Assembly: GCA_007695195.1 (NCBI GenBank)
Contig: REEG01000185.1
Coordinates: forward strand, 1 to 33,815
DNA length: 33,815 nucleotides
Origin: Gemmatimonadales bacterium
GTDB taxonomy: Bacteria > Gemmatimonadota > Gemmatimonadetes > Longimicrobiales > Gaopeijiaceae
Direction: 5' to 3'
Below, piece after piece: positions 843 through 3,791 of the stretch; position 1 is the first letter of the stretch, and each line of letters begins with the position of its first letter. Under the pieces are notes generated by a model. That model saw only the letters and a program-made list of their open reading frames with translations. It searched no databases and was not told the DNA's origin. Position numbers and translations under genes: made by a program.

Positions 843-1814
843 TCAGCGACGCCCTGCCGCCGACATCCCACGGCTCAGCGCTTCGGCTGTTCCTGGGGTG
901 ATTCCGCCGGCACCGCCCACGGTGACGAAGCGGAAACCCTGGGAGATTCGCTGCTCCACATTCCCGGCCCCGGTGGTGAGGCCACAGGGGATGTTGTGGG
1001 CCAGGCAGCTGGCCAGCACCGTCTGGATGGCCGCTTCCACATCCGGGTGTCCGGTGTTGTCGCCGTACCCCATCTGAGTGGCCAGATCCAGGGGTCCGAT
1101 GAAGATGGCTCCCACGCCGGGGACGGTGATGATCTCCTCGATATTCTCCACCGCCTGGGGCGTCTCGATCTGGATGGCGGCCAGGAGTTCACCCCGGGGA
1201 TTCAGGGGCCACACATCGGCCCGCTGGAAGTACTCGCCCCCGGAGATTCCCCAGAACCAGGTCGCCACGCCGGGCGAACGCCCCCTCCACCCGTGGGGCT
1301 CGGCGATGTCCGAGCCGCGGGGCCGGGGATAGCGCATGGAGGCTACGGCGTGAATGGCTTCGTCCCGGTTGTTGATGAAGGGGAACATGATCCCGAAGGC
1401 CCCCATGTCCAGCGCCTGCTTGACGATGAAGTCCAGCATCTCCCGACCGTTCTGGGGGACCCGGACGATGGGGGTCACCGCCATCTGAAGATGCCCGTTC
1501 CGAACGATGGAGGCCTTGTCGGTCATTCCCAGGAGGAAGGCCTGCAGCGTTTCCGAACTCCACGGCCCGTGCTCCATGTCGATGAGGACGAAGTCCAGAC
1601 CGGAGTTGGCCAGAGATCGGGCATTGGCCAGGGAGAAGTCGCCGTTGAAGATCCCGAATGTGGCTTCTCCTCGATCCAGCGTTTCGATGGTCCGATTCAG
1701 TCGGATGTCCTGCCCCGATGCCTGGGCCTGGGCCTCGGCGACGGGAACGGTCGCCGCGAGGGCGGCCACGGGAAGGAGGAGAGAGCGTCGAAGGGCGGCA
1801 GCCGCGTGGCGCAT
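843..1814 (-). CDS. Exported HpcH/HpaI-type aldolase
   Basis: A 323-residue protein of the HpcH/HpaI aldolase / citrate lyase TIM-barrel family. Members cleave or form 4-hydroxy-2-oxo acids using a divalent metal. Active-site signatures are present: IDMEHGPWS (general-base His), PIVRVPQN (Arg), AIQIETPQAVENI (metal-binding Glu) and GPLDLATQMG (metal-binding Asp). Unusually, about 28 N-terminal residues form a classic signal peptide: basic start, long Ala/Leu core, AEA-QA cleavage site. The mature enzyme should therefore be periplasmic or secreted, whereas characterised HpaI enzymes are cytoplasmic. A GGAG lies 9 nt before ATG 1814, which supports this start. It is divergent from a fumarylacetoacetase-fold lipoprotein. 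The family is secure; the substrate is unknown. Confidence 0.88.
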   Translation of the reverse strand: MRHAAAALRRSLLLPVAALAATVPVAEAQAQASGQDIRLNRTIETLDRGEATFGIFNGDFSLANARSLANSGLDFVLIDMEHGPWSSETLQAFLLGMTDKASIVRNGHLQMAVTPIVRVPQNGREMLDFIVKQALDMGAFGIMFPFINNRDEAIHAVASMRYPRPRGSDIAEPHGWRGRSPGVATWFWGISGGEYFQRADVWPLNPRGELLAAIQIETPQAVENIEEIITVPGVGAIFIGPLDLATQMGYGDNTGHPDVEAAIQTVLASCLAHNIPCGLTTGAGNVEQRISQGFRFVTVGGAGGITPGTAEALSRGMSAAGRR

Positions 1815-2050
1815 GGCGGATCACTCCGGATACTGGGAAGAGGAGGCCGAGCCCGGAGCGTCGCGCACCGTCCCGGCCCGTGGATCGAGGCGCGGACTCC
1901 ACGGAGACCCGGGAACCCGCACTGTCCGCCACACTACCGCCATGGGCGGTGGCGGCGCCAGCCCCGGTTCCGCTTGCCGCCTCCGGAGTCCGGGATTACG
2001 ATTCGCCCCGTCGATCCGCTCATGTCCCGCTTCCAACCGGAAAGGATCCC

Positions 2051-3112
2051 ATGTCCCGCCCAGCATTCACTCCCCTCGCGGCGCTCCTCGTCGCATACTC
2101 TCTCCTGCTCATTGGATGTGGCGATACGACGAATACCGCCAATGCCGGATTCGATACCCGGGCCGCGGTCGCCGTTTCCCCCGCCGGCACCTACGGAAAT
2201 CATGCACTTCCCGGTGACCCGGTCATCCCCATGGAGACGCTCCGGGAAGACTACGCCCACCTGGCCGAGACCACCCGGGCCAACCCGGACGTCACCTACT
2301 ACGTCCGGTACCTTGAGGACGGTGCGGTCCACTACGGAATCCTCGAAGGCGAAACCATCCGCCAGCTCTCGTCCCACTACTTCGACAACCCGTCACCCAC
2401 CGGCCGGACCGCCGACCTCATGGATGTCCGCCTCGTCTCGCCGCTGGACCCGGACCGGGTCTCCAAGGTGCTGGGTGTGGCGGTGAATACCATGCGGCCG
2501 CAGCTGGCGGATCTCCCGTCGGAGGCGCATCCGCGCTGGTTTGCCAAGCTCCCCAACTCCATCATCGGCACCGGCGAAGGAATTGAACTCCCGGAAGAGT
2601 CGGGGAACCTCAACTACGAGGCGGAACTGGTCCTCATCATCGGACGAGAGGCTCGCCACGTCTCGGTAGAGGACGCCCCGGACTACATCTGGGGGGTAAC
2701 GGCGGGGAACGACATGAGCGAGAACACCTGGTACGGAGAGGGAGCAGGCCGGGAGGGACCCACCCGCCTCATCTCCAAGGGGACCGATACCTGGGCGCCC
2801 ATCGGGCCGGCCATCGCTGTGGGGCTGGACTACGACGACGTCCGAATCATCCACCGCCTGAACGGCGAGGTCACGCAGGACGGTACCGCCTCGCAACTTG
2901 TCCAGACGCCCGCCGAACTGGTGGCCTACCTGAGCCGCTACATGACGCTGCTCCCGGGGGATATCCTTTGGACCGGGACGGTTCTCTTCGAAGAAGGGGC
3001 CCGCCGGGCCATGGAGGTGGGCGACGAGATCACTGTGGAGGTGGAGGGGATCGGGATCGTCCGGAACCAGATCATCCCCATGGGCGGGACCCGCTGGGAG
3101 GATCGCTGGTGA
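2051..3112 (+). CDS. Fumarylacetoacetate hydrolase family lipoprotein
   Basis: A 353-residue protein. The start at ATG 2051 is chosen because AAAGGA precedes it and a lipoprotein signal follows: a hydrophobic stretch ending in LIGC, with Cys23 as the probable lipidation site. The frame stays open further upstream, but that extension is Pro/Arg-rich and lacks coding character. The C-terminal two-thirds match the FAH fold: YEAEL supplies two metal-binding Glu, the GNDMSENTW segment the metal Asp, and SKGTDTWAPIGP the catalytic Lys loop. Family members are hydrolases, decarboxylases or isomerases of 2-oxo acids, for example HpaG or HpcE. Anchoring such an enzyme outside the cytoplasm is unusual and parallels the exported aldolase next door. 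trmH follows after 16 nt, probably on the same transcript. The substrate is unknown. Confidence 0.87.
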   Translation: MSRPAFTPLAALLVAYSLLLIGCGDTTNTANAGFDTRAAVAVSPAGTYGNHALPGDPVIPMETLREDYAHLAETTRANPDVTYYVRYLEDGAVHYGILEGETIRQLSSHYFDNPSPTGRTADLMDVRLVSPLDPDRVSKVLGVAVNTMRPQLADLPSEAHPRWFAKLPNSIIGTGEGIELPEESGNLNYEAELVLIIGREARHVSVEDAPDYIWGVTAGNDMSENTWYGEGAGREGPTRLISKGTDTWAPIGPAIAVGLDYDDVRIIHRLNGEVTQDGTASQLVQTPAELVAYLSRYMTLLPGDILWTGTVLFEEGARRAMEVGDEITVEVEGIGIVRNQIIPMGGTRWEDRW

Positions 3113-3128
3113 GGGAGAGGCACCGCTG

Positions 3129-3791
3129 ATGCGGCCCGAGCGATTCCACCGCATCCGGAGCGTACTGGATCGAAGACAACCGGACCTCACGGTCCTCATG
3201 GAACGGGTGAACAAGGAGCACAACCTTTCGGCCATCGCCCGGAACTGCGACGCGGTGGGCGTGCTGGACCTTCACGCGGTGGTCCCCGACCGGGGGCTGC
3301 GGCTGCACCGGGACACGTCCGGGGGGACGGCGAAGTGGATCGATCTCCACCGACACGATTCCATTGCAGGCGCCCTGGAGTCCCTGAAACACCGGGGGTT
3401 CCAGGTGGTGGCAGCCCACCTGGACGACAACGCCGTGGATTTCCGCAAGGTGGACTACACGGTGCCCACCGCCGTCCTGGTGGGCGCCGAACTGTTCGGC
3501 GTCAGCGACACGGCGGCGGAGGCGGCGGACGTCACCGCCGTCATCCCCATGGTAGGGATGGTGCGGTCCCTGAACGTCTCCGTGGCCACGTCCCTGTTCC
3601 TCTTTGAAGCTCTTCGGCAGCGCCAGGCCAAGGGCATGTACGACCAACCCCGGATCCCGCAGGAGCGCTACCGGGAGATCCTCTTTCGTTGGGCGTATCC
3701 GGAGCACGCCCGCCGATACCGTGAAGCGGGGTTGGACGCCCCGACCCTGGGGCCCGAAGGGGAGTTGCCCGACGACCTCTACCGGGGCTGA
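3129..3791 (+). CDS. trmH: tRNA (guanosine(18)-2'-O)-methyltransferase TrmH
   Basis: A 220-residue SPOUT methyltransferase that methylates the ribose of G18 in the tRNA D-loop. The sequence follows E. coli TrmH closely over its whole length: RRQPDLTVLMERV near the N-terminus, HNLSAIARNCDAVGV, a DNAVDFR motif, and the trefoil-knot SAM site VGAELFGVS...VIPMVGMVRSLNVSVA. The C-terminal tail with YREILFRWAYPE is also family-typical. GGGAGAGG lies 8 nt upstream of ATG 3129. The gene is convergent with pdxH, with only 10 nt between the stops and no visible terminator hairpin there. Confidence 0.96.
   Translation: MRPERFHRIRSVLDRRQPDLTVLMERVNKEHNLSAIARNCDAVGVLDLHAVVPDRGLRLHRDTSGGTAKWIDLHRHDSIAGALESLKHRGFQVVAAHLDDNAVDFRKVDYTVPTAVLVGAELFGVSDTAAEAADVTAVIPMVGMVRSLNVSVATSLFLFEALRQRQAKGMYDQPRIPQERYREILFRWAYPEHARRYREAGLDAPTLGPEGELPDDLYRG

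Follow-up and report, generated by a model that had tools for sequence, protein, structure and literature searches.

The closest described relatives of the two enzymes considered in this work belong, on the one hand, to the class II pyruvate aldolases of the HpcH/HpaI type, exemplified by HpaI/HpcH (2v5j, 4b5s in the PDB), GarL (1dxe), YfaU (2vws) and a protein from Burkholderia (4mf4), and, on the other hand, to the FAH superfamily, exemplified by HpaG/HpcE (1gtt), FAHD1 (6fog), YcgM (1nr9) and the Rv2993c-like proteins. Small 2-oxo acids are taken to undergo aldol chemistry in the cytoplasm, and in the FAH superfamily a His/Glu dyad in the lid marks the hydrolytic enzymes such as FAHD1 and FAH. 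A gene of each kind is found side by side in the stretch of DNA analyzed here (hereafter the window; 33,815 nucleotides from a Gemmatimonadales bacterium), and the products of both genes carry N-terminal export signals.

Layout of the locus

The preliminary description of this DNA reported a divergent pair of genes coding for an HpaI-type aldolase and an FAH-fold lipoprotein, and its anatomy is as claimed, with the respective Pfam domains matched in both products (Table 1). Sequences resembling the Shine-Dalgarno element can be read 9 nt upstream of the aldolase start (GGAG) and 4 nt upstream of the FAH start (AAAGGA). A shared promoter was considered and set aside, no sigma-70-like site being seen in the intergenic region, a result that is uninformative in this phylum. 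A foreign island recognizable by its composition was likewise rejected, since the G+C content of the pair (65-69%) is similar to that of its surroundings. The FAH stop codon is separated by 17 bp from the gene for a TrmH-type methyltransferase. To the left of the aldolase the gene order is visible for one gene only, because the source is a fragmented MAG of 306 contigs. In this genome the aldolase is the sole PF03328 protein, and the FAH lipoprotein is one of two PF01557 proteins.

Table 1. Positions of the genes, sites and signals discussed in the text (numbering of the window)
Feature	Position	Strand	Basis
HpcH/HpaI-type class II aldolase, exported, 323 aa	843..1814	-	PF03328 E 1.6e-30; AlphaFold model
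Aldolase signal peptide, aa 1-28, likely cut AEA/Q or AQA/Q	1731..1814	-	sequence; orthologue leaders; model
Motif D79-M-E81-H82, active site with the catalytic Asp/His dyad	1569..1580	-	invariant in 74 exported sequences; aligns with 1dxe, 2v5j, 4b5s
R118, counterpart of the pyruvate-binding Arg70 of HpaI	1461..1463	-	conservation; alignment to solved homologues
E217, metal ligand	1164..1166	-	conservation; alignment to solved homologues
D243, metal ligand	1086..1088	-	conservation; alignment to solved homologues
Cys270/Cys277, invariant and probably disulfide-linked	984..1007	-	conservation; alignment; model
Intergenic region between the divergent genes, 236 bp	1815..2050		sequence
FAH-fold lipoprotein, exported, 353 aa	2051..3112	+	PF01557 E 9.7e-49; PF10370 E 1.8e-12
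FAH leader of the lipoprotein type, lipobox LIG/C23 with Gly at +2	2051..2119	+	sequence
FAH lid segment VNTMRPQLAD, without the His(-Glu) of NYxxH(xxE)	2483..2512	+	FAH alignment; contrast with cytosolic paralogue L002
FAH metal ligands E190, E192	2618..2626	+	at least 90% conserved in FAH alignment
FAH metal ligand D221	2711..2713	+	invariant in FAH alignment
TrmH-type methyltransferase, start of the block conserved in congeners	3129..3791	+	synteny

The aldolase and its family

The aldolase belongs to the PF03328 superfamily (106.5 bits, cut-off 25). Its AlphaFold model (mean pLDDT 86; residues 1-34 unstructured, which fits a signal peptide) has the barrel fold in common with the solved HpcH/HpaI enzymes listed above (Foldseek E 1e-21 to 1e-18), and the best PDB matches in the structure search are 4mf4 (E 1.2e-21), 2v5k and 4b5w. 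At about 30% identity, it also has in common with the solved class II pyruvate aldolases every catalytic and metal-binding residue: D79, E81, H82, R118, E217 and D243 are invariant across the 74 exported aldolases aligned and are present in five solved cytosolic homologues. Unlike the solved enzymes, it possesses a signal peptide, an invariant pair of cysteines and family-specific insertions near residues 96-113 and 164-209. The connection to the 4-hydroxyphenylacetate pathway drawn in the preliminary description holds only at the level of the fold: neither protein of the pair reaches the NCBIfam cut-off of the corresponding pathway enzyme. The aldolase scores 118.6 against the 368.8 bits of the HpaI equivalog (TIGR02311), and the FAH protein 108.7 against the 276.4 bits of HpaG/HpcE (TIGR02303). 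The aldolase also falls below the cut-off of the GarL equivalog (109.7 vs 406.75).

The N-terminus of the aldolase reads MRHAAAALRRSLLLPVAALAATVPVAEA/QAQA, with the leader sequence MRHAAAALRRSLLLPVAALAATVPVAEAQAQA, and contains no later start codon that would spare the barrel. Export was judged by the conservation of the N-terminus among orthologues, with cytosolic genes as controls. Searches with a profile of the exported aldolases yielded 80 loci in named genomes (49-68% identity), mostly from marine Gammaproteobacteria such as Pseudohongiella, as well as from Acidobacteriota, Vicinamibacterales, a Verrucomicrobium and Gemmatimonadota. The orthologues do not start downstream of the signal: 78 of these loci encode a hydrophobic leader, in most cases with xAQ at its end, and the remaining two (L128, L205) start at a contig edge. 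A crude signal picker flags 80 of 91 aldolases, 47 of 52 of the propeller proteins described below and none of 36 malate synthases; as it also flags 10 of 38 ABC ATPases, it is a rough guide only. Export by the Tat route was rejected, since the RRS of the leader is not conserved across the family.

The cysteine pair constitutes a second, independent sign of export, likewise read from the sequences. Cys270 and Cys277 occur in all 74 exported aldolases aligned and are absent from the five solved cytosolic homologues. In the model they mark a helix end and the start of the next strand, respectively, so that a periplasmic disulfide between them is likely. Judged by its signal peptide and cysteines, this protein departs from the cytoplasmic location typical of the characterized PF03328 members. 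A literature search returned no description of a periplasmic aldolase, which is a weak negative, as the slash in the family name limits such a search; the exported subfamily is apparently undescribed.

We propose that the window protein is a member of a broad Sec-exported family of HpcH/HpaI class II aldolases, with a barrel that would be held by the Cys270-Cys277 disulfide, and that it probably cleaves or makes small 2-oxo acids in the periplasm. In the putative reaction, which would be metal-dependent, a 4-hydroxy-2-oxo acid would be split into, or formed from, an aldehyde and pyruvate or another oxo acid like it. Asp79/His82 would serve as the base, Arg118 would bind the carboxylate of the oxo acid, and the metal would be coordinated by Glu217/Asp243. 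One branch of the exported aldolases, made up of lipoproteins (L023-L033, 35-40% identity), keeps both cysteines and has D79 replaced by Ser, H82 by Gly, Arg or Asp, R118 mostly by Lys, and D243 by Thr; judging from these substitutions, it is probably a non-aldolase derivative.

The FAH-fold lipoprotein and its relatives

The FAH protein (N-terminus MSRPAFTPLAALLVAYSLLLIG/C, lipobox LIGC, Cys23) matches PF01557 with 166.4 bits (cut-off 23.9) and contains the expected metal ligands Glu, Glu and Asp, which places it in the superfamily. The FAH domain, the ligands E190/E192/D221 and the residue K243 are common to it and to HpaG/HpcE, FAHD1, YcgM and the Rv2993c-like proteins, and the Rv2993c-like N-terminal domain is likewise found both here and in known members of the superfamily. 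It differs from these proteins in being an exported lipoprotein, in the loss of the lid His/Glu, in a linker of ~60 residues and in a WYGE insertion. The lid dyad of the hydrolytic, acylpyruvase type (NYxxHxxE) is absent from the window protein, which has VNTMRPQLAD at the position of the NYxxH of its relatives, in contrast to the cytosolic paralogue encoded in the same genome, in which the lid reads RNYRAHASELG. Hence, the earlier statement that both proteins keep their metal and catalytic residues is correct for all six residues of the aldolase, and in the FAH protein it extends to the metal ligands and K243 but not to the lid. The presence of the metal ligands without the lid His makes hydrolysis of an acylpyruvate less likely, and we suggest that the enzyme would rather isomerize, decarboxylate or hydrate a 2-oxo acid.

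The WYGE insertion was found in only three other proteins (from genomes G105, G007 and G037), and the lid His is missing from all four. In G007 and G037 the WYGE-type FAH gene adjoins a gene for an FAD-dependent oxidoreductase (DAO) with a leader of its own; in the loci L084 and L085 the exported WYGE-type FAH is located beside the exported DAO, with the genes overlapping by 4 bp in L085.

The relatives of the FAH protein in the order carry signal peptides, and a leader is present in 36 of 40 further exported-FAH loci from Gemmatimonadota and other phyla. The lipobox Cys is found in the window protein and a few others, and is missing from most relatives, though these are exported. Together with the leaders kept in the relatives of the aldolase, this renders the export of each of the two proteins a well supported prediction, in agreement with the Sec signal and the lipobox originally read in their sequences. 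The exported FAH family ranges from Gemmatimonadota to marine Gammaproteobacteria; it is large, as widespread as the exported aldolases, and apparently undescribed, and the window protein would be a lipid-anchored member of this separate family. Among other exported FAH proteins, double-domain forms (L243-L252, frames of 589-661 codons) occur in about ten Pseudomonadales genomes and exhibit a bifunctional layout like that of HpaG. In marine Gammaproteobacteria (L255-L265), single-domain forms follow an FAD-linked oxidase, an SDR, a nitroreductase and a small unknown protein in a fixed block.

Neighborhoods, co-occurrence and rival explanations

The adjacency in the window had been taken to suggest that the two proteins act together on small oxo acids outside the cytoplasm. 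We inspected flanks of up to ~8-10 kb, shorter at contig edges, around ~89 distinct other aldolase loci (about 11 of the 80 profile loci repeat genomes of the order) and 60 loci of the exported FAH family. Within these flanks, an exported-type FAH gene was found near the aldolase in none of the 89, and an aldolase near the FAH gene in none of the 60, and a conserved divergent pair is thereby rejected. The order itself contributed 20 aldolase regions without FAH and 20 FAH regions without aldolase; the other 40 FAH regions, from the phylum and from the genomes behind the profile loci, lack the aldolase as well. Two NHL proteins (L078, L079), initially grouped with the FAH relatives, turned out on direct reading to be propellers, their clustering having arisen from long spurious frames.

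At the level of whole genomes the outcome of the survey is different. Among 146 genomes of the order, the aldolase family is present in 18 others, the exported FAH in 27, and both in eight, i.e. FAH accompanies the aldolase in 8/18 genomes vs 19/127 in the rest of the order (Fisher p = 0.006, kinship ignored). Elsewhere, an exported-type FAH (E <= 1e-45) occurs in 23 of 50 aldolase-bearing genomes, a count without a matched background. Both genes are absent from the congeners G080, G097 and G128, in which the block TrmH-PdxH-amidohydrolase-PlsC-SDR-photolyase is retained (in G128 up to the contig edge), and to the left of TrmH G080 and G097 carry different genes. The boundary at which the window pair is located is thus variable, and the two genes may have arrived in this genome together. 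On the far side of TrmH (window 3112-3129; L209, L210) the genes differ among the readable genomes of the genus, which marks this point as a variable site of insertion.

The partner that does recur beside the aldolase is another protein. Of 100 loci searched, 51 encode an exported NHL beta-propeller near the aldolase, and the two genes almost always share a strand; the propeller gene is directly upstream in 27 of these, with gaps of -16 to 57 bp that point to one operon. In marine Gammaproteobacteria, the gene for malate synthase G (35 of 100 loci) is often located just upstream of the propeller and the aldolase, and an OpuC-like ABC transporter recurs at aldolase loci (the ATPase in 37, a permease-binding protein fusion in 23). 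The order of genes can be seen in L126-L205 (e.g. L175:6735-8876), with the propeller directly upstream of the aldolase, often after malate synthase G, and the transporter downstream. We located no published description of an operon composed of such an aldolase and an NHL propeller. The aldolases of these operons belong to the same exported subfamily and exhibit ~49-59% identity to the window protein, but the window genome differs in that neither a malate synthase nor an NHL propeller was found in it (the propeller search had no positive control), and no propeller is adjacent in the window.

These data bear on several explanations of the locus. It is improbable, though worth keeping in mind, that a 2-oxo acid made or used by the lipoprotein is then cleaved by the aldolase, with both enzymes in the periplasm and both genes driven from one divergent promoter region. 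The divergent arrangement with 236 bp between the starts, the absence of both genes from the congeners, the above-chance co-occurrence in the order and the 23 of 50 aldolase-bearing genomes elsewhere agree with such a functional pair; against it stand the lack of adjacency in all other loci inspected, the distance between the two genes where it can be measured (~1.5 Mb in the single-contig genome G037 and 0.4 to >1 Mb in Pseudohongiella chromosomes), and the conservation of a different neighbor of the aldolase. The adjacency is peculiar to the window genome among those examined, and as such it is no evidence that the two proteins work together; with the congeners devoid of both genes, the paired activity originally deduced from it is left unsupported. 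It is less plausible still, and in our view very unlikely, that the leaders are not working signals (owing to wrong starts or to a role as membrane anchors) and that both enzymes serve ordinary cytoplasmic breakdown of 2-oxo acids. Functionally characterized HpaI and FAH proteins are indeed cytoplasmic or mitochondrial, but the leader is kept across several phyla, usually with a cleavable xAQ end, the aldolase has no usable later start, the invariant cysteines are peculiar to the exported aldolase family, and the partner propeller is exported too.

The recurrent malate synthase G and OpuC-like transporter suggest a glyoxylate-yielding reaction in the organisms that possess them: the exported aldolase, together with its propeller partner, would act on 4-hydroxy-2-oxoglutarate or something similar to yield pyruvate and glyoxylate, the latter being taken up and used by malate synthase G. 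As an account of the window locus we regard this as unlikely and give it low weight, since neither a propeller gene nor one for malate synthase was found in this genome, and the glyoxylate route was rejected for the window organism for want of the synthase. The likeness of the propeller to peptidyl-alpha-hydroxyglycine lyase (PAL) is only a general NHL similarity, and the identification of the propeller as a PAL was also discarded.

The explanation that we favor, and consider probable when taken as a whole with the chemistries proposed above, is that of two independent exported enzymes that have become neighbors through local genome history. The features that count against independence are the presence of both genes here and their absence from three congeners, in line with the possible joint arrival, and the genome-level co-occurrence in the order, which is above chance when kinship is ignored.

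The window thus corrects a tempting two-gene story, and what is surprising extends beyond the pair, to a family of exported, Cys-paired aldolases with a conserved operon partner of its own. It is conceivable, and we propose it tentatively, that in marine Gammaproteobacteria these aldolases and the NHL propellers form the core of an undescribed periplasmic pathway of C-C cleavage for dissolved oxo acids, with the exported FAH proteins as a loosely co-occurring second arm; the window organism would possess the aldolase without the propeller. Each of the two exported families has enough members for tests in cultured relatives. If a family of exported, disulfide-stabilized aldolases with representatives in Gemmatimonadota, marine Gammaproteobacteria, Acidobacteriota and Verrucomicrobiota is confirmed, it would follow that the making or breaking of carbon-carbon bonds is, in some bacteria, not confined to the cytoplasm.
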